From Candidatus Melainabacteria bacterium (GTDB lineage: Bacteria > Cyanobacteriota > Vampirovibrionia > 2-02-FULL-35-15): DNA of 59,447 bases. A program made the position numbers and the translations under genes. Under the pieces are notes generated by a model. That model ran no database searches. It saw only the letters and a program-made list of their open reading frames with translations, and was not told where the DNA came from. Shown here piece after piece: positions 14,772-59,410 of the stretch. Numbering within the stretch: position 1 is the first letter of the stretch; every line of letters starts with the position of its first letter. The DNA lies in assembly GCA_016201905.1 (NCBI GenBank), contig JACQBQ010000022.1, forward strand, positions 1 through 59,447, read 5' to 3'.

Positions 14772-16709
14772 TCAACCTACTACATCAGTTTTTACACAAA
14801 ATGTTTTTGGACTTTTAAAACAAATACCACCAATTTCCAGTTCTTTAGTCCAACTGTTTTTTTTAACAGGCATCCAGCTTTTTAATTCCATTGAATCTAA
14901 TTTCTTTCTATTACATTCAAAGCAGCATGCAAAAAGATTTTCTGTATCAAAATTAAACTGCGGCATCTTACTCACAGGTAAGTAATGGTCATAAGAAGCA
15001 GAGTGCTCCCTCAAGATATGATTTGTTACTTCTTTCCCATCTTCATTTATATATGTAATAAAGGCATCTTCTGCTTCTTTTATTGCAGACTTAACGGTAT
15101 CTGGATCTAATAACTGCTTTCCACAATAAACACAACTCCAATTATCTCTCTCCCATACTTCATAAAGAAGCTTTTCAGGTGGCTTTTTCCGTATTTGTTT
15201 CTTTACACTATCATCGTTCAAAGAAGGCTGAATAAGTTTTTTTTGAATCGCAGGCTCGCTGTAGGAATAGTTTTTGAATATTTCAGCAGCTAATTCTGAC
15301 AAAGAATTAAAAAATTCCTTTTGATAACTCTGATCTCCAATAACTTCACCGCTAAATATAACTTGTACATTTTCATCAAAAATTGTACCTACTTCAAATA
15401 TTGTTTTATTTCCAATTTTTGTCATCTTGGCTATCGGTTTATCAGAATGAATTAACTTACATTTCAAATTATCAACAGAAAAGAGGGACAAAGTACTTAA
15501 GTTTTGCCCACCAGAGGCTGGTCCACCTTTGGCGGAAGGTCTTGAGGTCTTGAAGTCCTGAAGTTCTGAGGTTTTGCCCGCCAGAGGTAACTCCACCTTT
15601 AGCAGAAGATCTGTAGGTCTTGAGATTACAGGACTTTGAAGTTCTAAATTACTGTGACCATTTGCTACCACTTCCTTATTATTTTCAGGGAGTGAATAAA
15701 GAGATTTTTCCTTATATTCCTTCTTATAGTGTTCTGCTATTGCACTTTGAATAGAGCGTAAAACCAGGCTGTAAACATCATTTGGATTGTTATAGCGTAC
15801 TTCTTTTTTAGTAGGGTGAACATTTACATCTACAAAAGAAGTTTTAAAATTAAGGTTTAAAACTACAATAGGATATTTACCGGCAGGTAACAGTCCTTCA
15901 CATGCACTAAATATAGCTTTTGAAACTATTTGACATTTTATCGGACGATTATTTACAAATATAAAAATAGATTTCCTGTCTGCTCTAAAAACCTCCAGGG
16001 TACTTATAAATCCACTTAAATCCATAAAATCATTGTTTGATGAAATTGGAATTAGTTTATCTTTTAAATCAATTCCTAACAGTTCGACTATAGTTTGTTG
16101 AAAATTATTTGAACCGCTTGATTTTAATAAAACATTTTTATTGTTTAAAAGAGTAATAGCTGCCTTCGGTCGAGAAAGCGCTTCTGAAATTACAGCATCA
16201 TAAACATGCCCAATTTCTGTGGTTTCTGATTTTAGGAATTTTTGTCTGGCTGGGACATTGTAAAACAAGTCATCAATTTCAAAGGCAGTACCTATAGCTA
16301 TTGCAGAGGTTTTTTTATTTGTTTTTTCATCAGCAATTTTTAGTTCAAATCCATATTCCTGGTCTATGTGCTTTGATCTGCAGGTTATTTTACTTACTGC
16401 ACTAATTGAAGCTAATGCTTCCCCACGAAAACCCAGAGTTTTTATACTCCACAGATCATCAAAACGTTTAATTTTACTTGTAGCATGTCTGGCAAAAAGC
16501 AGATTTACATCGTCTGGATCAATTCCCATTCCATTGTCAGAGACTTTAATATATTTTCCGCTTCTTTCAATTTCAATTTCAATTTTTGTTGCACCCGCAT
16601 CAATAGAATTTTCTACAAGTTCTTTTACAACAGATGCCGGTCTTTCAATAACTTCACCTGCTGCAATTTTTTTTATTAAATCTTCTGAAAGCTGTTTTAT
16701 GTAACCCAT
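14772..16709 (-). CDS. mutL: MutL-type GHKL ATPase with a C-terminal HNH nuclease domain
   Basis: Residues 1-335 are a canonical MutL N-terminus: GEVIERPASVVKELVENSIDAGA, DNGMGI, ATSKI, TLGFRGEALASI, and the VDVNVHPTKKEVRY transducer end. The C-terminal dimerisation/endonuclease domain is not recognisable; I see neither a DQHA nor an E-rich endonuclease motif. Instead residues about 508-620 form an HNH fold: WERDNWSCVYCG (C526, C529), SYDHYLP (H575) and NLFACCFECNRKK (C596, C599). The linker (about 350-400) contains repeat-derived sequence. The ORF is continuous, so the join is not a frame artefact within this sequence. Expected role: mismatch repair with a nicking activity supplied by HNH (inference). 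Two operator palindromes lie at its 5' end. Confidence 0.85.
   Translation of the reverse strand: MGYIKQLSEDLIKKIAAGEVIERPASVVKELVENSIDAGATKIEIEIERSGKYIKVSDNGMGIDPDDVNLLFARHATSKIKRFDDLWSIKTLGFRGEALASISAVSKITCRSKHIDQEYGFELKIADEKTNKKTSAIAIGTAFEIDDLFYNVPARQKFLKSETTEIGHVYDAVISEALSRPKAAITLLNNKNVLLKSSGSNNFQQTIVELLGIDLKDKLIPISSNNDFMDLSGFISTLEVFRADRKSIFIFVNNRPIKCQIVSKAIFSACEGLLPAGKYPIVVLNLNFKTSFVDVNVHPTKKEVRYNNPNDVYSLVLRSIQSAIAEHYKKEYKEKSLYSLPENNKEVVANGHSNLELQSPVISRPTDLLLKVELPLAGKTSELQDFKTSRPSAKGGPASGGQNLSTLSLFSVDNLKCKLIHSDKPIAKMTKIGNKTIFEVGTIFDENVQVIFSGEVIGDQSYQKEFFNSLSELAAEIFKNYSYSEPAIQKKLIQPSLNDDSVKKQIRKKPPEKLLYEVWERDNWSCVYCGKQLLDPDTVKSAIKEAEDAFITYINEDGKEVTNHILREHSASYDHYLPVSKMPQFNFDTENLFACCFECNRKKLDSMELKSWMPVKKNSWTKELEIGGICFKSPKTFCVKTDVVG
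15501..15624. repeat. Two copies of a repeat inside the mutL linker
   Basis: Two similar blocks of about 46 and 54 bases, at 15501-15546 and 15571-15624, each run from GTTTTGCCC(A/G)CCAGAGG to TCTTGAG with CCACCTTT(G/A)GC in the middle. They are translated in frame on the minus strand (VELPLAGKTS and SRPSAKGGPASGGQ). Their G/C content and internal palindromic character differ from the flanking mutL sequence, so they look like inserted repeats tolerated in a flexible linker. Confidence 0.6.
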
Positions 16710-16717
16710 GGTTACAT
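16699..16717. promoter_or_regulatory. Operator palindrome overlapping the mutL start codon
   Basis: The minus strand reads ATGTAACCATGGGTTACAT, two perfect 8-bp arms around a 3-base centre. The centre ATG is the mutL start codon (16707-16709). The same 19-bp design recurs 30 bp upstream and before three small-protein loci. A protein bound here would block translation initiation signals and early elongation of transcription; this is inference. Confidence 0.7.
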
Positions 16718-16728
16718 TGTCGCATTAA

Positions 16729-16747
16729 ATGTAACCTATGGTTACAT
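16729..16747. promoter_or_regulatory. Second operator palindrome upstream of mutL
   Basis: The sequence is ATGTAACCTATGGTTACAT, with perfect 8-bp arms. Its centre is 30 bp (about three helical turns) from that of the copy on the mutL start codon, so two dimers could bind on one DNA face. Confidence 0.75.
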
Positions 16748-27389: not shown

Positions 27390-28520
27390 CTAAACTGTTA
27401 TCGGCTCCTTTAAAACATCCCCTATTTTTGCAATGATTTCTTTAGAATGTTTTTGTGGTAAATCAATTGCTTTAAATGCACAAGCACCCACACAAAGTCC
27501 ACATTCTGCACAGCGAGCATCAATTACAATAGCCAGCTGTTTGTATTTAGGATGATCTGTTCTTGGCACCATATAAATAGCTTCATAAGGGCAATCCTTA
27601 GCACATAAAGTACACCCAACACAATTATCCAGTGAAACAGTAGCTGGTGATTTTTGCTCATCAACTATTAAAAATGGTACAAGAAGTAAAATTGCAACTG
27701 CTATAAAAACAATTGTCCAAACAACCATTGCCGGAATATTTGAGAACAATGGGAAAATCCACAAATAAAACCAGTCAACCGGAAACTCTTTTGGAGTTTC
27801 AGTTAAAACAGCAGGTTTACCACTAACTACAGGTATAAGACCTGCTGGAATAATAATTGTAGCCATTAATAGAAGACCTAATCCTAATGGCACATCAGTA
27901 GCTGGTCTTGAGATTCTAAGATAATGAAGCCAGAGTAAATATAAAAGAAAAAATGAAATGCCTACATGTAGGAAAAATGACATAGCCATTGTATAGTGAG
28001 TGATCACTTCGCCATTTATAAATAGCCCTGCAAGTGAAGTACCTACAAGCGGTATAGCTTTTAGCGCATCAGTCATCATTAAAGTTATCATATAAGAACG
28101 CTCATCCCATACGAGAATATAGCCAGTAATGCCAATTACAAACATGCAAAGGAAAAGTGCTACCCCAGAGTACCAGGCAATCCAGCGATATTTTCTATAC
28201 CTGTCTGTAAAATAAACTCTTAGTGCATGCAAAACCACTGTAATCATCATTGCATCTGCAGCATAGCGATGCATACCTCTTACTACACCACCAAAAGGGA
28301 TTTTTGTAGAAATATAATTTACTGAAATATAAGCACTGTCAAGGGTGGGCTGGTAATAAGCAAAAAGCAAAAGACCAGTAACAAACAAGGTCCACATAAA
28401 AAGATTTGGTACAGCACCATGATAGTAAAACGGATTATATTGCTGACTAAAAACTTTGTTTAGCAGCTTCTCAAAAGCTATTGTTAGTACTTGTAATTTG
28501 TCTAGTGTTTTTCTGTACAT
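27390..28520 (-). CDS. Cytochrome b fused to a 2[4Fe-4S] ferredoxin domain
   Basis: Residues about 35-225 are a cytochrome b N-terminal four-helix domain with all four haem ligands at the canonical 14-residue spacing (H84/H98 and H185/H199). Further TM segments follow, with PVDWFYLWIF (about 250-260) in the Qo PEWY-like position. Residues about 296-360 are a dicluster ferredoxin: CVGCTLCAKDCP and CAECGLCVGACA. The fusion links quinone chemistry directly to iron-sulfur electron transfer, unlike an ordinary bc1 cytochrome b. It sits immediately before mvhD. I infer that it exchanges electrons between quinone and MvhD/AprAB. Confidence 0.85.
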   Translation of the reverse strand: MYRKTLDKLQVLTIAFEKLLNKVFSQQYNPFYYHGAVPNLFMWTLFVTGLLLFAYYQPTLDSAYISVNYISTKIPFGGVVRGMHRYAADAMMITVVLHALRVYFTDRYRKYRWIAWYSGVALFLCMFVIGITGYILVWDERSYMITLMMTDALKAIPLVGTSLAGLFINGEVITHYTMAMSFFLHVGISFFLLYLLWLHYLRISRPATDVPLGLGLLLMATIIIPAGLIPVVSGKPAVLTETPKEFPVDWFYLWIFPLFSNIPAMVVWTIVFIAVAILLLVPFLIVDEQKSPATVSLDNCVGCTLCAKDCPYEAIYMVPRTDHPKYKQLAIVIDARCAECGLCVGACAFKAIDLPQKHSKEIIAKIGDVLKEPITV

Positions 28521-28542
28521 AACTCCTCTTTAAAATTCTCAA

Positions 28543-28761
28543 TTACCTCCTTGGTTTCTCCTTTGCCGGGTTTGTCTCTTCATTGTCGGCATTTCTAGTT
28601 AAAACAAGAAATGAAATTGCAGCCATTGTTGCAAATATACCAAAATAAATCGCAAATGTTAGATCCTTATAACTAAGTTCAGATGTTGCTAAAAGATATA
28701 ACATAACAAGTGATCCTGCAGCACTTGCAAATCCAATCAATAATTGAAAAAGGAACATCAT
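28543..28761 (-). CDS. Small two-TM protein of the cytochrome operon, 72 aa
   Basis: Two TM segments (MMFLFQLLIGFASAAGSLVMLYLL and LTFAIYFGIFATMAAISFLVL) are followed by a polar tail (NADNEETNPAKEKPRR). Its ATG overlaps the stop of the preceding 91-residue gene (ATGA), so translation is coupled. It lies between the two cytochrome b genes and is probably an accessory subunit or assembly factor. I recognise no family. Confidence 0.65.
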   Translation of the reverse strand: MMFLFQLLIGFASAAGSLVMLYLLATSELSYKDLTFAIYFGIFATMAAISFLVLTRNADNEETNPAKEKPRR

Positions 28762-29033
28762 TTGTGTATTTTCCTCACAGAGAGCTTACTATATAGCCAT
28801 TCATAGAAACCAAACTTCATTTTTAAATTATCTTTTTTCTTTTCATCTACGTAAATCCAGTAACCCATTAAAAAAAGTGTAAGTAGAAAAACTAAAGCTG
28901 AAACAATAGAAATACCTAGATGAGCAAATGTCATTTCAGATGAAATAAGTCTGCCTGCCTCAAAAAATTCTGACAGTGCAAAAACTGATATAAAAAATAC
29001 AATGAGTCTAAAAGGTTTTATATTTTTCAACAT
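28758..29033 (-). CDS. Small two-TM protein of the cytochrome operon, 91 aa
   Basis: Two TM segments (RLIVFFISVFALSEFFEA; HLGISIVSALVFLLTLFLMGYWIYV) and a basic, aromatic tail (KFGFYEWLYSKLSVRKIHK). It overlaps the end of the upstream cytochrome b by one base (TAATG) and the start of the next gene by four, so all three are translationally coupled. It is probably a structural subunit of the same membrane complex. The family is not recognised. Confidence 0.65.
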   Translation of the reverse strand: MLKNIKPFRLIVFFISVFALSEFFEAGRLISSEMTFAHLGISIVSALVFLLTLFLMGYWIYVDEKKKDNLKMKFGFYEWLYSKLSVRKIHK

Positions 29034-30370
29034 TATGCAGCTTTCTCCTGAGTTTGAACTATCCTCTTCCTAATAAGCAGGTGCCACCCATAAGCAATGG
29101 TGGCTGGAATCATGCAAACTCCTACACCAACTAATTGCTGCTTTACTGTAATCCATCCATTTAATAAAGTTGGGAATGACCAATATAAAACAAAAAGTGG
29201 ACAAGCTACATAAGCTATAAAATCCATAATTGCAACAGGTAATTTTTCAGGTCTTTCAATTTTATGATTAATGTACTGCCATACAACACCAATAGCAATG
29301 ATTATCCAGGTTCCCGTTCTCCATATGGGCGGATCTCTATGAATATTTGCAATATTTGCAATTATTAATCCTGAAAAAACTAAAAATTGAATGAAGCCCA
29401 TTATAGTTACCATTAAAAAAATCGGTCTTTTTGAAAGTCGTGTCTCAGGTCCAAGATCAAAAAATGGAAGAGCAATTACAGTTACAGGCACAAGCACGGT
29501 AAGTGCTGTTGCCCAGACCGGTTCCATATATTTTAAAAATTGATAAAGTGCTAAAAAATACCAGTCAGAAAGAATTGGCAAAGGAGTAACACTGGGATCT
29601 GCTCTATGGCCAATTTGAGCAGGCAAAATAATTGCAGTAATAAATACCATTGCAGTTGGAACAGATGCTAACTTCCAGGAAATATTTAATCTTTTAAATC
29701 CAGTCTTATAAATGTAAAGCTCATAAGCTATGAGTGCAAGCAAAGTAAATGCAGTATGAAATGCATAAAACCTTGTCATCGTTGCTTGTCCAATTGAGCT
29801 ACCACCTAAAAGGATTTGAGAGGTATTAACTCCAATGTGTGTTGGTCCAAGAATATAAAATTGTTCTACGTAAGTAGGGAATGTTGCAAAAACTTTTGTT
29901 GCCCAGAATGCTCTTTGATTCCAGATTAGAAGATAACCAGTTAGACCAGAATACATTCCAAAGAGCAGTGTAATTAAAGCAATGGCTATATTAAATTCAC
30001 GATTTGGTTTATAGTCGCATGCAAGAAACATTCTATAAAGCCTCATCGTTGCTGCAATTATAACTGCATCTGCACCATATTTATGAACCCCTCTGGTAAT
30101 TGCCCCGAAAGGAATTTCTGTTTGTATTTTTACAATTGAATCATATGCTTCGCTAATAGAAGGAATGTAAATTGCCATAAGTAGACAACCAGAAACTATT
30201 GTTACCATCCAAAAGAGCCATACTAATGATCCAAGCGTATACCAGGGATTTGTTTTTGCTTTATCTACATAGTGCTCATCAAAAATATCAATGCCATTAA
30301 TGTGATCAATCACCCATTTTTTGGCGATTTCAAATTGTTGTTTCCCGATTTCTTTTAGTTTATCGATCAT
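29033..30370 (-). CDS. Cytochrome b (bc-type), lacking one pair of haem ligands
   Basis: The 445-residue protein has the full cytochrome b plan (b6 plus subunit-IV-like halves, at least eight TM) and a Qo motif LPILSDWYFLALYQ. In the haem helices the first histidines are present (H96 in RGVHKYGADA; H205 in FYAFHTAF), but the +14 positions are Arg110 and Tyr219 instead of His. By the canonical scheme this keeps the bL pair and loses the bH pair. The start at 30370 has AGG five bases upstream. It follows the Rieske gene, separated by an interspersed repeat. Confidence 0.85.
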   Translation of the reverse strand: MIDKLKEIGKQQFEIAKKWVIDHINGIDIFDEHYVDKAKTNPWYTLGSLVWLFWMVTIVSGCLLMAIYIPSISEAYDSIVKIQTEIPFGAITRGVHKYGADAVIIAATMRLYRMFLACDYKPNREFNIAIALITLLFGMYSGLTGYLLIWNQRAFWATKVFATFPTYVEQFYILGPTHIGVNTSQILLGGSSIGQATMTRFYAFHTAFTLLALIAYELYIYKTGFKRLNISWKLASVPTAMVFITAIILPAQIGHRADPSVTPLPILSDWYFLALYQFLKYMEPVWATALTVLVPVTVIALPFFDLGPETRLSKRPIFLMVTIMGFIQFLVFSGLIIANIANIHRDPPIWRTGTWIIIAIGVVWQYINHKIERPEKLPVAIMDFIAYVACPLFVLYWSFPTLLNGWITVKQQLVGVGVCMIPATIAYGWHLLIRKRIVQTQEKAA

Positions 30371-30382
30371 GATTACCTATTT

Positions 30383-30494
30383 GTGTCATTGCGAGCCGAA
30401 CAAAGTGAGGCGTGGCAATCCGTTTTTGAGATTGCTTCGCTCGGCCTCGTCTCCGACGAGTCGGAGCGGGTCGCTAACGCTCCTCGCAATGACG
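30383..30494. repeat. Long palindromic repeat inside the Rieske-cytochrome b operon
   Basis: It opens TGTCATTGCGAGCCG, contains GAGATTGCTTCGCTCGG and the inner stem CTCCGACGAGTCGGAG, and closes CGCTCCTCGCAATGAC. It fills most of the 130-base space between the Rieske and cytochrome b genes, so it will be transcribed as a large stem within the operon mRNA. Confidence 0.8.
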
Positions 30495-30506
30495 CTAAAC
30501 ATCATA

Positions 30507-31073
30507 TTATGCTACTCCTCCTGTTTCAAGATCAGTTATAACCAACTGATTATTTTCAACCTTGTAAACAAACTTCCTTGGTGGCCTTGGTGCCGGACCA
30601 GAAACTACTTTTCCTTCTTTTTGAATATCAAAAACGCTTAAGTGGCATGGACATGCAAAAACCGGTCCATCTGGGCGATAGTTATAACCTTTAGCTACAT
30701 CATCAGGGTTTGGGACAAAATTAAACACACAACCTAAATGTGGACATATTCTGCTATAAACTGCAAAATCTCCACTTGGAAGTTTTATAGCAAAACCTGG
30801 AATATCTCTGATTTGTGTACCGATAGCTGTATATTCTTTGTTTACCTGTATAAAATTAAATGCCTGAGCATCAAATGGTTTTGTGAACAAAGAGAGATCA
30901 AATATTACAGGTTTTACAGATTTTGGCAGATCAGGACCTTGCATATAATTTAGAGGTTTAATCGTTGGCTTTAAAAACCTCATAAAAGGTGACAACGCTG
31001 CAAGTAATGTCCCCAGGACTGGAACAGCTAAAAACCCTTTTAATAAATCCCGTCTTGTTGTCTCCATATCCAT
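30507..31073 (-). CDS. Rieske iron-sulfur protein
   Basis: The product has a twin-arginine-like N-terminus (TTRRDLLKGFL) with one TM anchor, then the Rieske fold with ligands CPHLGC and CPCHLSVFD, and the Pro-rich loop SGPAPRPP. It takes electrons from quinol at the Qo site and gives them to cytochrome c. The ATG at 31073 (188 residues) is preferred because AAGAGG lies 11-12 bases upstream; an upstream GTG would overlap that SD. Position between dihaem cytochrome c and cytochrome b marks a bc-type complex. Confidence 0.9.
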   Translation of the reverse strand: MDMETTRRDLLKGFLAVPVLGTLLAALSPFMRFLKPTIKPLNYMQGPDLPKSVKPVIFDLSLFTKPFDAQAFNFIQVNKEYTAIGTQIRDIPGFAIKLPSGDFAVYSRICPHLGCVFNFVPNPDDVAKGYNYRPDGPVFACPCHLSVFDIQKEGKVVSGPAPRPPRKFVYKVENNQLVITDLETGGVA

Positions 31074-31097
31074 AATTATTATCACCTCTTAATTTTA

Positions 31098-31910
31098 TTA
31101 TTTATCCTTCTCTGTATTTTCTTCTTCTTTCTTACTTTCTTTTGCTTCAAACAATTCTTTTTCTCTTAAAATATCCTTTTCAGTGCTGTAACCAAACTGT
31201 CTAATAAACTTAACAAGCTCCCATCTGAACTTTTCATCAAACTCAAAATGCTTATCCTTATCAACCCTTCCTGCCCATGGCGGCATTGCAGTCCAGGGTA
31301 TTCCATTAGAAACTTCATCAAAAAGTTTCTCATCTGTTTTTTCATAAAGCCTGTCAAACTGATTAAAGTTTGCTGGGGGTGGATTTAAAAAGTAATGAAT
31401 TGGACCATCAGCAAATCCTCTTGTACCATGACAAACCGCACAGTTTGAACCAAACTTGACTTTTACATCTTCAACATCCTTTGGCAAACCAAAAAGTGTA
31501 TAACGGACATACATCACTATGTCCCATCTTTCTTGTCTGGTTAATTTTTCTCTAAATGACTCATGCTTATCATCATTAGTAATCACTTTAAATAATTGAG
31601 ATGGTGGAACACTGTTTATATATTTCAGAGTAAACTCATTTTTATTTGCTTCACTTCCAAAACTATGGCAAGCTGAACAGTTCTGGGTAAATAACTGCTT
31701 CCCTTCTACTACAGATGGGTCCTTCGTAGGGTATGCAAAATCTTCTTTAGTAGCTTTTTCATTAATTAATGGTTTCTTCTCAGAAGGCAAGTTAACTTTT
31801 TTCAAATTCAAGGTCGATTGGCAGGCAGAAATTAGAAATCCAATTAGCACAATGCACATGACAAGTGTTACTGTCTTTAATATTTCTGCTATTTGTTTTT
31901 TATCACTCAT
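31098..31910 (-). CDS. Dihaem cytochrome c lipoprotein
   Basis: The N-terminus is a lipoprotein signal peptide (VTLVMCIVLIGFLISAC, lipobox LISAC). Two c-type haem motifs follow, CSACH and CAVCH, each in a cytochrome c fold with likely Met ligands downstream (MPPWAGR). A charged tail ends the protein (KESKKEEENTEKDK). The ATG at 31910 (270 residues) is preferred over the upstream TTG. Its place next to the Rieske gene suggests it replaces cytochrome c1/f and passes electrons to the cbb3 oxidase. Confidence 0.85.
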   Translation of the reverse strand: MSDKKQIAEILKTVTLVMCIVLIGFLISACQSTLNLKKVNLPSEKKPLINEKATKEDFAYPTKDPSVVEGKQLFTQNCSACHSFGSEANKNEFTLKYINSVPPSQLFKVITNDDKHESFREKLTRQERWDIVMYVRYTLFGLPKDVEDVKVKFGSNCAVCHGTRGFADGPIHYFLNPPPANFNQFDRLYEKTDEKLFDEVSNGIPWTAMPPWAGRVDKDKHFEFDEKFRWELVKFIRQFGYSTEKDILREKELFEAKESKKEEENTEKDK

Positions 31911-31933
31911 TTTCTTTCTAACTACCCTCAATC

Positions 31934-31960
31934 TAGGCAGGTCTTGACCTGCCTCTACAG
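31934..31960. repeat. 27-bp stem repeat after the 58-aa TM gene
   Basis: The arms AGGCAGGTC/GACCTGCCT followed by CTACAG end one base before the stop codon at 31962. Same family as the copies at 26.9 and 27.4 kb. Confidence 0.7.
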
Positions 31961-31961
31961 T

Positions 31962-32138
31962 TTAATATCCAAAAAACGGTACCCATGAAATTAAAGCCCA
32001 AAGAAAAACTAAAAAGAATAAGACTAGTAAAAAAAGAGGTGGCTTATGTTCTCCCATCCGATATTCTTCTGGTTTTGTAACTTGAGGAACTTGACAAAGC
32101 GGTTCATATTCGTGTTTTTGTCCTACGTTATCAGCCAT
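31962..32138 (-). CDS. 58-aa single-TM protein of the oxidase operon
   Basis: A soluble, acidic head (MADNVGQKHEYEPLCQVPQV) precedes one TM segment (FLLVLFFLVFLWALISWVPFF) at the C-terminus. The ATG at 32138 is chosen because AAGGAGG lies nine bases upstream; it overlaps the end of the ccoS-like gene by eight bases. It could serve as a membrane anchor or CcoP-like N-terminal piece, but similarity is too low to name it. Confidence 0.65.
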   Translation of the reverse strand: MADNVGQKHEYEPLCQVPQVTKPEEYRMGEHKPPLFLLVLFFLVFLWALISWVPFFGY

Positions 32139-32337
32139 TGTTATGAACCTCCTTCTTTGGACTATCTTCCAACATATCAAACTTGCTTGTTTCCAGATCT
32201 TTCATTTGACCTGATCTCATAGCCCAGATAAAAAATACCAGCGCAACCAGAAAATAAACTGTGCATAGCCAGGCAAACATGCCAAGACCAGGTCTTGTAA
32301 TTAAATCATGGATTACTTCTTGTGGTGTTACGTTCAT
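32131..32337 (-). CDS. ccoS: CcoS-like cbb3 oxidase maturation protein
   Basis: The 68-residue protein has one TM segment (MFAWLCTVYFLVALVFFIWA) followed by MRSGQMKDLETSKFDMLEDS, close to the CcoS hallmark W-A-x-RSGQ-x-DDLE-x-x-x-x-x-IL-x-DD. CcoS helps insert haem and copper in cbb3 oxidase. It usually sits in a separate ccoGHIS cluster; here it is directly after ccoO. The N-terminal 20 residues are longer than usual. A CcoQ role is the alternative. Confidence 0.65.
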   Translation of the reverse strand: MNVTPQEVIHDLITRPGLGMFAWLCTVYFLVALVFFIWAMRSGQMKDLETSKFDMLEDSPKKEVHNNG

Positions 32338-32344
32338 TTTTTAT

Positions 32345-33301
32345 TTAGTGCCCTCCTCCGGCACCTGGTGGTGGACCTTTTGTTTCAATAATCATTGCAG
32401 GCTTCTGGGAATTTAATTCTGCTGCTGAGATTTTTTGTTGCTCATTCCATCTTTCAGGATCCAGCGTCTCATATGCTTTTGGATAAACCTCATTTTCTCT
32501 TGGCAGTGTTTTTAAGAAAGCTACTAAATACCATCTTTGTTCCTCAGTTAATAACTTCCCCCACTGCGGCATTCTTGTCCCTGGTACACCTTCAGTAATT
32601 CTCCAGAACCATGTCACATCATCATAATCTTTAAAAAATGGTCTTGAAAAGTTCGCTGGTTTTTTAGCAATGGCTATAGCATTTGGTCCATTGCCTAATC
32701 CATGAGTACCATGGCAGGTAGCACAGTTTTGTTGAAATATTCCGCGACCAGCATTTGCAGCAGCTGAGCTGTCTACATTAACTTTTCTTTTTTCTAGAAC
32801 TTTTTCAAGTTCATCAGGGTGGTAAATGCGATTGTACTTAACAATTCTTTTTTTACCTAAAGACTGAACATAAGCAACAAGCGCTTTCATCTCTTCATCT
32901 TTCAGGTAAACAAACGGTGGCATAACTGAGCCTGGTGTTGTAGTTCGTGGATTTTTAAAGTGAGCAATATGCCATGCATCAGGATGCTTACCACCTTCAT
33001 TTGATAAATCCGGACCAGTTCTAATCGTGCCAAGAACATTTGGTGTCTCATATACATAGTCACCTGCCATAACAAGTGGTCCAAAATCCCTGTCCTGTGG
33101 TCTTACAAACTGACTGTGGCAATAAACGCAGCCTTCTCTCAGATAAATCTTTCTACCTTTTGCTTCAAGAGGCGTGTACTTAACTGCAAACTCTGATGGA
33201 GCAGGTTTAAAAATAAAATTTGGCAAAAGTACAGTAGAAAAAATGATCATGCTAAATGAAAGTAAAACAACAATGCCAGGAAGTAAATAATTCTTATTCA
33301 T
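32345..33301 (-). CDS. ccoO: CcoO-type monohaem subunit fused to a second cytochrome c domain
   Basis: After one TM anchor (about 5-28), residues 45-165 follow CcoO: GRKIYLREGCVYCHSQFVRPQDRDFGP and GTIRTGPDLSNEG...HIAHFKNPR. A second cytochrome c domain (about 195-290) follows with CATCHGTHGLGNGPNA and GTRMPQWGKLLTEEQRWYLVAFL, of the kind normally found in CcoP. So one 318-residue protein carries two c haems. No separate ccoP is seen in the operon. Confidence 0.85.
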   Translation of the reverse strand: MNKNYLLPGIVVLLSFSMIIFSTVLLPNFIFKPAPSEFAVKYTPLEAKGRKIYLREGCVYCHSQFVRPQDRDFGPLVMAGDYVYETPNVLGTIRTGPDLSNEGGKHPDAWHIAHFKNPRTTTPGSVMPPFVYLKDEEMKALVAYVQSLGKKRIVKYNRIYHPDELEKVLEKRKVNVDSSAAANAGRGIFQQNCATCHGTHGLGNGPNAIAIAKKPANFSRPFFKDYDDVTWFWRITEGVPGTRMPQWGKLLTEEQRWYLVAFLKTLPRENEVYPKAYETLDPERWNEQQKISAAELNSQKPAMIIETKGPPPGAGGGH

Positions 33302-33334
33302 TTTTTACTTAGCGATTTTTCCGCCTCCCTTGCT

Positions 33335-34717
33335 CTAGCTTTTTGCTGGTGCCATTGCTGGTTCAACATCTGGTGAATCCAAAGGCTTAACAGCACGCAT
33401 TGTCTGAATTACATTTAAAAGAAATAAAACATTTCCAAACCACATTAAGCTTCCACCCATAGCACGTAAGATCCAGTAAGGAACCATTTCAATTCCCCAT
33501 TGGTTTACCGGGATGCCGGCATGCCAGCCAGCTGACTGAACTAATCCACCAATTGTCATGGATGAAAAGAAAATAAGAAATCCAATCAATGTAAGCCAGT
33601 AATGTGCTCTTGCTAAACCTACGCTGTAAAACTGCCTGTTTAAAATTCTTGGTAAAATATAATAAATAGCACCAAAATCAAAAAAAGTAAAAGTGCCAAG
33701 AAGCGCTACGTGTGCATGTCCAACCACCCATTGTGTAAAGTGAAGGTACCAGTTAATAGACCTTGTCGCTTGGAAAGGCCCTTGAATACAAGTAATAAAG
33801 TAAAAGAAAGCTCCTGTTAAAACAAAACGCAATGGCAAATTATTTGCAAGCTGCCACCAGTTCCCTTTCATTGTCATAAAAAAGTTGGTCAGAACAGTAA
33901 TAACCGGAATAACAAGAGCTACACTAAAAACTACTGCAAGTGCTTTTAACCACTCAGGCACAGGCGACTGCAAAATATGATGGGTACCGGTCGGTGCATA
34001 GAAAAATGCTATGGTCCAAAAGCCAAGCATTGAAAGGCTGTGACTCCAAAGTGGACGTCCGCTAAGCTTTGGAATCATATAGTATGCAATACCAACCCCA
34101 AGGGTTGTAAACCACATTCCTAAAATATTGTGTCCATAAAACCAGTTTACAATTCCATCATTCAATCCTTCTAATCTAACAAATGTTCTATTACCAATAA
34201 AATAAACTAGTGGCATCCAGAAAAAAGTACCAAGAATATACCAAAGACTGACATATAACTTTTTAACAGTTCTGGTTATTGCAGTCATATAAACAACATA
34301 TGAAAGTGTAAGCAGTCCAGTTAAAACCATTACATCTATTGGAACTGGGAACTCTGCATATTCGCGGCCTTCAGAGTAGCCATTTACAAGGCAAAGAATT
34401 CCACCAAAAATTGCAAGGTTCCAAACCAGGCAAACAAAGTTAGCAAGCTTTTCATTAAAAAGTTTTGAGCGGGTAAGCGTGGGCACTATATAAAGAACTA
34501 TTCCAATATTTGCCATTGAAAGCCAGCCAAAAGCTACAGTGTTTACGTGGGCTGGTCTTATCCGAGAAAATGTTAACCATGGAACGCCAGTACTTAAATC
34601 AGGAGCTGTAAACTCAATAGCCCCAGTTAAACCTAATGTCATTCCTATTACAAGCCAGAATACTGCTGTAACAATAAAATTCCTACTTGCTGAATTTTCT
34701 TTATCTGAAAAAAACAT
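33335..34717 (-). CDS. ccoN: cbb3-type cytochrome c oxidase subunit I
   Basis: The 460-residue polytopic protein has about 12 TM segments and the cbb3 metal ligands: RPAHVNTVAFGWL (haem b), NWFYGHNILGMWFT (CuB His), PTGTHHILQSPVP (CuB His-His), and WVVGHAHVALLGTF (two haem His). It reduces oxygen and pumps protons at the membrane. It is the first gene of the long minus-strand run. No strong SD is visible. The upstream 216 bases hold its promoter and then the end of the small TM cassette. Confidence 0.95.
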   Translation of the reverse strand: MFFSDKENSASRNFIVTAVFWLVIGMTLGLTGAIEFTAPDLSTGVPWLTFSRIRPAHVNTVAFGWLSMANIGIVLYIVPTLTRSKLFNEKLANFVCLVWNLAIFGGILCLVNGYSEGREYAEFPVPIDVMVLTGLLTLSYVVYMTAITRTVKKLYVSLWYILGTFFWMPLVYFIGNRTFVRLEGLNDGIVNWFYGHNILGMWFTTLGVGIAYYMIPKLSGRPLWSHSLSMLGFWTIAFFYAPTGTHHILQSPVPEWLKALAVVFSVALVIPVITVLTNFFMTMKGNWWQLANNLPLRFVLTGAFFYFITCIQGPFQATRSINWYLHFTQWVVGHAHVALLGTFTFFDFGAIYYILPRILNRQFYSVGLARAHYWLTLIGFLIFFSSMTIGGLVQSAGWHAGIPVNQWGIEMVPYWILRAMGGSLMWFGNVLFLLNVIQTMRAVKPLDSPDVEPAMAPAKS

Positions 34718-34933: not shown

Positions 34934-35065
34934 CTATCCGGTTTTTTTATTGTGTCTTTCTTTTGATTTCTTTTCCATGGAGTAAAACATATACCAAAGA
35001 CCACCTAGTAAAAGTGAAACTGAAAAAAGTGTAAACAGTAGCCCTATTATTTCATTTTGATTCAT
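34934..35065 (-). CDS. 43-aa single-TM basic-tail protein (cassette 1, third gene)
   Basis: A short head (MNQNEIIG), one TM helix (LLFTLFSVSLLLGGLWYMFY) and a basic tail (MEKKSKERHNKKTG). It overlaps the preceding 39-residue gene by 14 bases in another frame, implying coupled translation. The two neighbours share the TGGAAAAGAAATCAAAAGA stretch and the EKKSK tail, so they arose by tandem duplication. It is too short for usual ORF finding. The function is unknown. Confidence 0.6.
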   Translation of the reverse strand: MNQNEIIGLLFTLFSVSLLLGGLWYMFYSMEKKSKERHNKKTG

Positions 35066-35171
35066 CTTTTGATTTCTTTTCCAGTGAAAACTTTAAATAA
35101 AAAAGGCTTCCGATAAGAATGCCACATACTGATAATGAAGCAAGTAAATTTAAAAAAAAGTTGGGTTCCAC
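35052..35171 (-). CDS. 39-aa single-TM basic-tail protein (cassette 1, second gene)
   Basis: It starts at GTG with GGGAG seven bases upstream, four bases after the stop of the 69-residue gene. The product is one TM helix (FFLNLLASLSVCGILIGSLFYL) with a tail KFSLEKKSKDESK. The same gene order, two-TM protein then single-TM protein, is found at 51 and 58 kb. The function is unknown. Confidence 0.6.
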   Translation of the reverse strand: MEPNFFLNLLASLSVCGILIGSLFYLKFSLEKKSKDESK

Positions 35172-35175
35172 TTAA

Positions 35176-35385
35176 TTACTCCCTTATTTCTTCAAAGCCT
35201 ATTTGAATGAACATTATACCAACAAATAGCAATAAAACTGCTCCAATGAAATTAATAAGAAATTGACCAGAAAATTTTATACCCATACTCAGTAACTCCA
35301 AGGCTAATTTCCCAAATGGAGTCATTAAGGCTATACCTAATATCTTAAATACCTCAGCTCTATATTTCTGTTCTTCTGAAACCAT
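35176..35385 (-). CDS. Two-TM MV(S/T)EEQK-family protein (cassette 1, first gene), 69 aa
   Basis: It opens MVSEEQKYRAEVFKILGIALMTPFGK, then has a second TM helix (FLINFIGAVLLLFVGIMFIQIGF) and a short acidic end. Paralogues at 51.0 and 58.4 kb share MV(S/T)E(E/K)QK(Y/F), a G in the first helix and a P-x-G turn. An operator-like palindrome ATGTAACC-AAG-GGTTACAT lies 69 bases upstream of the start. There is no SD before the ATG, as with its paralogues. The family is not recognised. Confidence 0.65.
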   Translation of the reverse strand: MVSEEQKYRAEVFKILGIALMTPFGKLALELLSMGIKFSGQFLINFIGAVLLLFVGIMFIQIGFEEIRE

Positions 35386-35453
35386 AACACATAAAAAAGC
35401 TAGCAGTAACCATATTAAAAATTAATAGGGAGATCTCTGTATTTCAAGAGAAT

Positions 35454-35472
35454 ATGTAACCAAGGGTTACAT
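35454..35472. promoter_or_regulatory. Operator palindrome upstream of cassette 1
   Basis: ATGTAACCAAGGGTTACAT has perfect 8-bp arms and a 3-base centre, as before mutL and cassette 2. It lies in the 310-base gap between the 69-aa gene and the divergent DNA methyltransferase gene; apart from this and the repeat at 35662 I see nothing else in the gap. Confidence 0.75.
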
Positions 35473-42636: not shown

Positions 42637-43332
42637 ATGAATACAAGACAAATAGACAGTTTCGAAAATTTTCAGCATGTAACCAAAGGTTACAACATTG
42701 AAATCAATAATAATCAATTAGATCTTTTTAAAAGATATTACAAAATATTATTAGAGTGGAATAAGAAAATTAATTTGATATCTCGAAGGGGAGAAGACAG
42801 CATAATTGAAAAGCATTTCCTAGATTCAATTGTATTTCTGCCTGAGATAGAGAATTTAATTAATCACAATCAGGGCAGGATAAATCCTGCTCCTACAAAT
42901 TTACTTGATATTGGCTCTGGCGGAGGATTTCCTGCTATACCCCTTGCAATTATGAAACCAGATTGGGATTTTGTTTTATGTGAATCTATCAAAAAGAAGG
43001 CGGGGTTTTTAACAACCCTTGTAAAAGAATTGAATCTTGAAAAACGTGTAACCATTATCAATGATCGGGTTGAGACATTATCTAATAACCAATTTGATTT
43101 CATCACTGCCAGAGCTATTGCAAAATTAGATATCCTTATAAAATATGCTTTGCCACTATTAAAGAAGGATGGACACCTCTTAGCTTACAAAGCAAAAGAT
43201 ATTGATGATGAAATAAAAACAGCTGAAGAAATAATTAAAAAAAATAAATTAAAGTTAAAAATATTTTCAAAAGAGATAAATGGGGTTGAGAGGAAACTGA
43301 TTGTTATACGTCATTGCGAGGAGTCCACCTAG
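42637..43332 (+). CDS. rsmG: 16S rRNA (guanine-527-N7)-methyltransferase RsmG with repeat insertions
   Basis: RsmG features are QLDLFKRYYKILLEWNKKINLISRRGE, HFLDSI, LLDIGSGGGFPAIPLAI (SAM motif), CESIKKKAGFL and ITARAIAKLDILIKYALPLL. A 27-base stem repeat adds QGRINPAPT just before the SAM motif strand. The C-terminus RHCEEST and the stop are supplied by another repeat (43309-43353), so the natural end is replaced. An operator-like palindrome lies within codons 14-20, in an N-terminal extension not usual for the family. Confidence 0.9.
   Translation: MNTRQIDSFENFQHVTKGYNIEINNNQLDLFKRYYKILLEWNKKINLISRRGEDSIIEKHFLDSIVFLPEIENLINHNQGRINPAPTNLLDIGSGGGFPAIPLAIMKPDWDFVLCESIKKKAGFLTTLVKELNLEKRVTIINDRVETLSNNQFDFITARAIAKLDILIKYALPLLKKDGHLLAYKAKDIDDEIKTAEEIIKKNKLKLKIFSKEINGVERKLIVIRHCEEST
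42677..42695. promoter_or_regulatory. Operator-like palindrome inside the rsmG 5' coding region
   Basis: ATGTAACCAAAGGTTACAA matches the 19-bp operator at 18 positions. It encodes HVTKGYN and starts 40 bases after the rsmG ATG. It may be a true intragenic site or chance; the N-terminal extension in which it lies is itself unusual. Confidence 0.45.
42871..42897. repeat. 27-bp stem repeat inserted in rsmG
   Basis: CAGGGCAGGATAAATCCTG with the CTCCTACA tail is in frame (nine codons) immediately upstream of the SAM-binding strand. It is the same family as copies at 26.9, 27.4, 31.9, 55.25 and 55.7 kb. Confidence 0.8.
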
Positions 43333-50847: not shown

Positions 50848-50982
50848 TTACTTTAGACTCAATTGCTTCTTCTTTTTTCCTTCGCGTTCCGGTTTTGTAA
50901 AAATAAAATAAAGAGGCAAGAATATAGACATTGCTGCAAAGAAGCAAGCCACATAAACCAAGACAACTTTCCAGATCTCCAT
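50848..50982 (-). CDS. 44-aa single-TM basic-tail protein (cassette 2, second gene)
   Basis: The ATG directly abuts the stop codon of the upstream two-TM gene (TAGATG), so translation is coupled. The product is one TM helix (VVLVYVACFFAAMSIFLPLYFIF) followed by TKPEREGKKKKQLSLK. It occupies the same place as the 39/43-residue proteins of cassette 1 and the 38-residue protein of cassette 3. The function is unknown. Confidence 0.6.
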   Translation of the reverse strand: MEIWKVVLVYVACFFAAMSIFLPLYFIFTKPEREGKKKKQLSLK

Positions 50983-51210
50983 CTATAAATCTCTTCTTTC
51001 GGTGTTGATTATATCATAGCTTTGAAAAATAAAATTTAATCCAAAGTAAGCTAGCAATAATGAATAGCCAAAAGAAATTAAAAACATAGTTGCTCCATAT
51101 TCACTAAAGGTTTGAAATGGATATAAAAGTATTTTACCCATTGGAGCGAGTAAAGCAATTCCTCCTAATTCTATTATTCTTGATCTAAATTTTTGTTCTT
51201 CAGTAACCAT
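50983..51210 (-). CDS. Two-TM MV(S/T)EEQK-family protein (cassette 2, first gene), 75 aa
   Basis: The product opens MVTEEQKFRSRIIELGGIALLAPMGK and has a second TM (MFLISFGYSLLLAYFGLNFIF) with a charged end (DIINTERRDL). The ATG at 51210 is chosen because it aligns with both paralogues; an upstream in-frame start would add nine residues. No SD precedes it. The operator palindrome lies 40 bases upstream. Confidence 0.65.
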   Translation of the reverse strand: MVTEEQKFRSRIIELGGIALLAPMGKILLYPFQTFSEYGATMFLISFGYSLLLAYFGLNFIFQSYDIINTERRDL

Positions 51211-51249: not shown

Positions 51250-51268
51250 ATGTAACCAAAGGTTACAT
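51250..51268. promoter_or_regulatory. Operator palindrome upstream of cassette 2
   Basis: ATGTAACCAAAGGTTACAT, perfect 8-bp arms and AAA centre, 40 bases before the 75-residue gene and 38 bases from the end of the deaminase-like gene upstream. Confidence 0.75.
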
Positions 51269-58183: not shown

Positions 58184-58300
58184 TTAGTTTTTCTTTTTTT
58201 GTTTTTGCCTGTTTAGATCATACAAAAAATAGGATACAAGGAGCATAGCTGGAACTATAATTACCGCAATCATTAATAATCCGACATAATCATTGGTCAT
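58184..58300 (-). CDS. 38-aa single-TM basic-tail protein (cassette 3, second gene)
   Basis: One TM helix (YVGLLMIAVIIVPAMLLVSYFLY) follows MTND and ends DLNRQKQKKKN. The start overlaps the end of the 71-residue gene by 11 bases in another frame. GGAG lies seven to eight bases upstream of the ATG (GGAGAGCAAGA). Same layout as in cassettes 1 and 2. Confidence 0.6.
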   Translation of the reverse strand: MTNDYVGLLMIAVIIVPAMLLVSYFLYDLNRQKQKKKN

Positions 58301-58505
58301 TCTTGCTCTCCTTAACAGTATTATATCCTACATAGAATAAAAACCAGCTAAGCAAAGAAATAACAGAACATATTATCACTTTGTTGATTGAAAATCTCTT
58401 TTCTAAAAGTAAATATTGAAAAGTCATCGAACCTATAGGAACAAGAAAAGAAAAGCCTAAATTTTTAAATACACTTGAAACATATTTTTGTTTTTCTGTA
58501 ACCAC
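58290..58505 (-). CDS. Two-TM MV(S/T)EEQK-family protein (cassette 3, first gene), 71 aa
   Basis: It begins with GTG and reads MVTEKQKYVSSVFKNLGFSFLVPIGS, then a TM of about 20 residues (VIICSVISLLSWFLFYVGY) and a charged end. No SD is seen. Similar to the 69- and 75-residue proteins at 35.3 and 51.1 kb in the first 26 residues, much less beyond. A degenerate operator palindrome lies 33 bases upstream. Confidence 0.6.
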   Translation of the reverse strand: MVTEKQKYVSSVFKNLGFSFLVPIGSMTFQYLLLEKRFSINKVIICSVISLLSWFLFYVGYNTVKESKNDQ

Positions 58506-58537: not shown

Positions 58538-58556
58538 ATGTAACCAAAGGTATCAA
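58538..58556. promoter_or_regulatory. Degenerate operator palindrome upstream of cassette 3
   Basis: ATGTAACCAAAGGTATCAA: the left arm and AAA centre are identical to cassette 2, the right arm differs at three positions. Confidence 0.55.
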
Positions 58557-59079: not shown

Positions 59080-59110
59080 TTCATTCTTGCTCCTAGCTAA
59101 GTCATTTTTA

Positions 59111-59121
59111 CCCCCCCCCCC
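59111..59121. repeat. Poly-C/G tract of 11 bases upstream of the Cys-rich gene
   Basis: Eleven consecutive C on the + strand (G on the coding strand) in very AT-rich DNA, between a TATAAA-like sequence (about 59130) and the start codon at 59079. Such tracts vary in length by slippage. The rest of the 331-base gap holds a repeat and IS-flanking DNA. Confidence 0.75.
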
Positions 59122-59234
59122 GAGAATTTATAACTAGACTGTTTGTACTAGAGTAAAGAACAGAAGCTAAACCCAAGAATTTCTTGTTCCTTATTTCTGA
59201 AAGAGGGATAGCCCTAAAGCTTTGAATTCTTTCA

Positions 59235-59335
59235 TGTCATTCCAGGCTTGACCTGCCCGCTCCACCTTGTCGGAGACGAGGCGAGGAAATCCAGCATAGT
59301 TACGCTTGCGGCAATTTTCTGGATTCCCGCTTGGA
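59235..59335. repeat. GTCATTCC-family repeat near the right edge
   Basis: It opens TGTCATTCCAGGCTTG, holds CCTTGTCGGAGACGAGG, and closes CTGGATTCCCGCTTGG. It is a longer relative of the 28-bp element at 16.8 kb and lies just before an IS transposase start. Confidence 0.65.
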
Positions 59336-59410
59336 GGCTATCTCAAAACTCTGTAATGAAAGGCCACTATTTTTCTAACAAAACATCATGACATGTGGGA
59401 GGATAAAAAT

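Follow-up and report, generated by a model that had tools for sequence, protein, structure and literature searches.

On the minus strand of the 59,447-nucleotide stretch analyzed here (the window, from a Candidatus Melainabacteria genome), positions 35472 to 34934 hold a compact cassette of three small genes behind a palindrome. This palindrome, which we call the operator, is odd-centred, spans 15–19 bp (35454..35472, or 35472-35454 as read on the minus strand), and has the sequence ATGTAACC-AAG-GGTTACAT. Behind it lies gene A (35176..35385, minus strand), which encodes a 69-residue membrane protein with two helices, and this is followed on the same strand by two mini-genes for one-helix proteins, B1 (35052..35171), with a GTG start, 39 residues, and a basic EKKSKDESK tail, and B2 (34934..35065), with 43 residues and a EKKSKERHNKKTG tail. 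Each element that an initial annotation had read from the letters, namely the operator, the 69-residue protein with two transmembrane segments, and the two overlapping single-span mini-genes with basic tails, was thus located on the minus strand. The mini-genes had also been taken for tandem duplicates, and since B1 and B2 are 38% identical and overlap by 14 nt, B2 is likely a tandem duplicate of B1; a single mini-gene is the usual state in the other cassettes.

The matching design claimed for the regions at 51 and 58 kb was found there as two sister cassettes. In cassette 2, the operator (51250..51268) stands before a gene A for a 75-residue two-helix protein (50983..51210, minus strand) and a gene B for a 44-residue one-helix protein with a basic tail (50848..50982, minus strand). 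Cassette 3 has a degenerate operator (58538..58556, ATGTAACC-AAA-GGTATCAA), a gene A with a GTG start for a 71-residue two-helix protein (58290..58505, minus strand), and a gene B for a 38-residue one-helix protein, again with a basic tail (58184..58300, minus strand). Near the contig end, the window also contains a poly-C run and then sequence that resembles dispersed repeats (59110-59400).

Across all copies, gene A proteins have 66–80 residues and two helices, while gene B proteins have 33–45 residues, one helix, and a basic tail, with B overlapping or abutting A in the design of each copy. The start of the mini-gene falls between -50 and +46 nt from the gene A stop codon in 81 of 84 distinct gene A sequences, overlap being the commonest arrangement, and such spacing suggests that A and B are co-transcribed. 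Gene A proteins share the motif M(I/V)TEEQKYRA..F...GFAL..P.GK..L, and residues G17, P23, and G56 are nearly invariant across the two taxonomic families that carry the module. The AlphaFold2 model of the cassette 1 A protein is a helical hairpin (helices 4–33 and 40–68, mean pLDDT 89), and both ends of the protein are predicted to lie inside. Sequence conservation in gene B is looser, though there is one helix throughout, with a mean charge of -0.6 before it (neutral or acidic) and +3.1 after it (basic); by the positive-inside rule, we therefore predict a single-span protein with its N-terminus out and a cationic C-terminal tail in. In the second family (f4, below), many B proteins share a conserved C-terminal tail of the LDPNKSFLENFFSA type. 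Among the most similar pairs, dN/dS, a check proposed in the initial annotation, is mostly 0.05–0.4 for both A and B, well under 1, and so both genes are maintained as proteins. As that annotation had also held, neither A nor B belongs to a known family, as searches by sequence and fold in Pfam, NCBIfam, PADLOC, PHROGs, and the PDB gave no significant match, toxin and antitoxin families included, and we found no description of the system in the literature.

Melainabacteria are relatives of the cyanobacteria that do not photosynthesize. In the genome of the window (2.28 Mb), a profile of gene A proteins detects 17 copies, among them two full-length ones with slightly short C-termini (C18 and C40), each with a mini-gene. 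Profile searches further place the family in all 11 genomes of the taxonomic family of the window's genome (f1) and in all f4 genomes tested, at 2 to about 27 copies per genome, while none of about 220 further genomes of the class, nor the rest of a phylum sample of 386 genomes, contains it. A phage or plasmid origin (as a holin, for example) was rejected, there being no match in 50,697 phage records, 72,556 plasmid records, or IMG/VR contigs. Gene order and operator are both kept across genera, which bears out the earlier proposal of a multi-copy membrane module behind a common operator; what that proposal lacked was the 17-copy scale, the limit to two taxonomic families, and the strongest clue of all, the presence of the operator at dprA, comM, ssb, recJ/pilC, and mutL as well. 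Tandem arrays, broken copies, and vacant sites record the birth and death of copies. With 33–80 codons, these unannotated genes are easily missed by gene callers; in small genomes, their number has risen up to 27-fold.

The operator, GTAACCnnnGGTTAC, occurs at 41 places in the genome when up to two mismatches are allowed in its 19-bp form, versus none for a reversed control. Moreover, 46 of the 47 f1 gene A copies that we checked have a site with up to three mismatches no more than 140 nt away, as against 1.15 of 47 for shuffled upstream sequences. In 27 of those copies, an extended -10 box (TGnTAnAnT) follows the palindrome after a fixed gap, a -35 box is lacking, and the palindrome centre falls at about -42 from the predicted transcription start. 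Here, the start codon coincides with the predicted transcription start, and gene A therefore probably has little or no leader. Most of the remaining f1 copies, including cassette 1, have the palindrome 47–78 nt upstream, and many of these show by eye a -35 box of their own and a palindrome centre near -62 to -74. Several copies carry a second palindrome 49–50 bp further upstream. Centres near these positions are those of the class II, class I, and tandem activator sites of CRP-type promoters, and the promoter geometry suggests that the operator acts as an activator site.

To delimit the regulon, operator matches were inspected site by site, with pilC, dprA, comM, ssb, and recJ as the uptake and recombination genes considered. 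In the f1 genomes, the operator (with at most one mismatch) precedes dprA in 10 of 11, and an exact operator precedes comM in 9 of 11. When aligned, the dprA and comM promoters display a -10-like T..AAT whose distance from the operator matches that in the cassettes. The sharing of the operator by dprA and comM, the mark by which a competence regulon would be recognized, is conserved across genera. The genome of the window also has the operator before the divergent recJ and pilC and before a small secreted gene that is followed by ssb. Because operator and promoter geometry are common to the cassettes, dprA, and comM, this comparison places the module in a DNA-uptake and recombination (competence-like) regulon, where the competence of these uncultured organisms is read from the genes themselves. 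We found no DNA-uptake regulon described for Melainabacteria in the literature, and a predicted one, complete with operator and promoter geometry, is now available.

Within the window, mutL (14772-16709, minus strand) has two operator copies at its very start (16699..16747); they are spaced by 30 bp, and one of them overlaps the assumed start codon. The operator is also found at mutL in at least four other genomes (G005, G006, G009, and G010), and mismatch repair may accordingly be tied to the DNA-uptake switch. A further copy with one mismatch to the GTAACC palindrome (42677..42695) precedes a BrnT-like/CopG-like toxin-antitoxin pair (42595-42105, minus strand). This pair belongs to a second group of targets, which by Pfam comprises RAYT-type transposases, ORF6N, Bro-N, and a 23S IVP protein besides the BrnT-like pair, and by eye RhuM-like and MazF-like genes; phage-type regulator genes are among the operator's targets. 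The REP-associated (RAYT-type) transposase genes are directly behind the operator at L006:3475-4032 and L020:4001-4648, and likewise in several relatives. In four genomes, a divergent pair of secreted-protein genes without a Pfam family shares the operator (L014:3559-5173, L097, L159, L160, and L173), and these proteins are possibly parts of the uptake apparatus.

In f4, the cassettes are more numerous (up to 27 copies) and partly in tandem arrays. Contig 28 of genome G023 (L077:4800-12600) holds about 15 of them in tandem at roughly 480 bp spacing with near-identical upstream elements, and several members of this array have an internally deleted gene A beside an intact mini-gene. The f1 palindrome is absent from the f4 cassettes. 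There, 32 of 36 A genes have the element TGnGGAA...TGACCCCTnAAAATTT upstream, in most cases at exactly 26 nt from the start codon, and this GACCCC element also precedes comM in all three genomes that use it, as well as a LuxR-type regulator gene in two genomes. It is absent at dprA in f4, and in three f4 genomes (G013, G018, and G042) neither comM nor any examined cassette has either this element or the palindrome. As judged from these upstream elements, each of the two families links the module to comM by an operator unrelated to that of the other, which makes simple co-duplication hard to invoke.

As for the regulators, each of six f1 genomes encodes exactly one CRP-family protein, with a cyclic-nucleotide-type pocket, and none scored above the cut-off in five genomes outside f1. 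This single protein (in G000, at G000:C32:51906-52127) is a candidate regulator of the operator. We did not assign it as the binder, given that its recognition helix (RETVNR) should read TGTGA half-sites and that the palindrome is one base too long between half-sites for a canonical CRP site. For f4, the product of the LuxR-type HTH gene at L142:1782-2153, which carries the GACCCC element of that family, is a candidate regulator. LexA and the SOS response were discarded as owners of the f1 operator, in that lexA of G000 and G009 carries TTTGTAC..TTGTACAA and no GTAACC palindrome upstream. The TTTGTAC-N2-TTGTACAA sequence, found upstream of lexA in two genera (L180 and L181), is a probable LexA box.

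Among known systems, the f1 regulon invites comparison with the CRP-S (Sxy/CRP) competence regulon of Haemophilus and other Pasteurellaceae, whose core targets include comM, dprA, ssb, and pilABCD (PMC3739930). The target sets overlap, the spacing is of the activator type, and there is the one CRP-family regulator in each of the six f1 genomes. In contrast to the CRP-S regulon, however, the f1 operator is odd-centred, with its half-sites one base further apart, the regulator is a candidate only, and the f1 regulon adds many small membrane modules along with toxin-antitoxin and transposase genes.

Taking all of this together, we tentatively favour an explanation in which the cassettes are a two-gene membrane module, expanding and lineage-specific, whose proteins form a new family, placed under DNA-uptake control and encoding a toxin/antidote-like pair. 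By comparison, A and B form one tight unit with one promoter and an operator at an activator position. The pair would be turned on during DNA uptake, and the two proteins would then act on the membrane of their own cell as an effector and its partner, of the toxin/antidote or addiction kind. The sharing of the operator with uptake genes suggests that cells make this membrane effector and its partner during DNA uptake. The copies would multiply, diversify, and decay like selfish addiction or kin-competition modules, and such a character fits better than a housekeeping role, given the many divergent copies, their arrays and decay, the sites left vacant, and the toxin-antitoxin and transposase genes that share the operator.

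A toxin/antitoxin-like or holin-like nature, both of which the initial annotation had put forward, is possible for these modules. Like the toxin-antitoxin and addiction modules built of small membrane proteins, the cassettes consist of two tiny overlapping genes behind one promoter, with many paralogues and rapid gain and loss; the two adjacent genes form one overlapping or closely spaced unit in nearly every pair, and type II toxin-antitoxin-like genes carry the cassette operator too. Unlike those modules, the cassettes show no sequence relation to a known family and have two partners that both resemble membrane proteins. A hand count of locus states gave about 17 with a broken A and an intact B versus four with an intact A and no nearby B. 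Since B is usually intact where A is broken, A would be the likelier harmful partner and B a modulator, and the same count argues against B as a free-standing toxin, both of which are suggestive only. The excess is not significant, that is, not clearly beyond what gene length would give when A has almost twice the length of B, and so we rejected the bias as proof of a toxic gene.

A further, rather unlikely reading takes the module, for which no homologues are known, as a new kind of selfish or adaptive element that has come under the host's DNA-uptake switch in two families, through different operators, and acts only when recombination can bring the cell a gain or loss of DNA. For example, a cell that lost the module through transformation might be punished for it. 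Mobile elements and transformation are known from other work to be in conflict (PMC11472951), and this would give a selfish module a reason for sitting in the uptake regulon. If the modules act only in uptake-active cells, they offer a direct test case for selfish genes versus natural transformation or, alternatively, for the role of small membrane proteins in competent cells.

A different explanation, which we regard as unlikely, is that the proteins have no toxic role and serve the competent state as accessory membrane effectors, which delay division, for instance, or remodel the envelope during uptake. Both the operator common to dprA, comM, and the cassettes and the purifying selection on A and B agree with this, and membrane proteins of that sort exist, as pneumococcal ComM (not the ComM helicase) is induced in competence and delays division (PMC5696345). 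The resemblance, drawn by description, lies in a membrane protein that competence induces, though ComM is a single protein and the cassettes encode a multi-copy pair. Moreover, it would be surprising to find a housekeeping effector in 2 to 27 copies that diverge, form tandem arrays, and often decay.

We consider it improbable that the cassettes are an antagonism device, in which a membrane-active peptide with its immunity protein kills neighbours to obtain their DNA. The small size of the proteins, the many diverging copies, and the arrays would suit such a device, and in streptococci the coupling of competence to bacteriocin production is established (PMC5295010, PMC4739728). The streptococcal bacteriocin and immunity loci (blp and cib) likewise have small hydrophobic proteins, many variants, and competence control, but they are from a different phylum, and in A and B we saw no double-glycine leader or signal peptide and, beside the cassettes inspected, no exporter gene. 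Furthermore, both A and B look like resident membrane proteins.

There is a slim chance that the module is an anti-phage or anti-plasmid abortive-infection device that fires upon the entry of foreign DNA. Small membrane effectors are common among defence systems, and co-regulation with DNA-entry genes would fit. However, PADLOC returned only single weak matches (best E 0.0067), each to one of 40 members, and no defence-island context was seen.

Finally, the immediate neighbourhood of cassette 1 is respiratory. On the same strand (27390-34717), it includes cbb3-type ccoN, a FixO-cytochrome c protein, a second cytochrome c protein, a Rieske protein, and two cytochrome b proteins, one of them with ferredoxin domains. 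With ccoN and ccoO downstream on its strand, cassette 1 could be thought to encode small CcoQ-like subunits of the cbb3-type oxidase, and the B proteins do share with CcoQ/FixQ one helix followed by a basic tail. This reading, which takes up the respiratory subunits suggested in the initial annotation, is very improbable and largely refuted, for ccoN adjoins the cassette in this species only, and in none of seven relatives is there an intact cassette at ccoN, which there adjoins a divergent DNA methyltransferase gene. At that site, G009 has two short blocks of about 80% identity, a probable cassette remnant. The ccoN gene has a promoter of its own that is conserved in relatives, G005 and G010 have cassettes with no ccoN detected, and unrelated genes adjoin most other cassettes. 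The one match to Pfam FixQ stays under the cut-off (14.5 bits against 29, E=0.034; 1 of 36 mini-proteins at E up to 0.1). A cassette that would speak for the oxidase is that at L018 (3812-4030 region), which by eye is followed by a CcoS-like ORF of 59 residues; what appears by eye to be the same ORF follows the cassette at L050 and L070 too, making three genera in all, which marks this cassette as a syntenic, vertically inherited copy.
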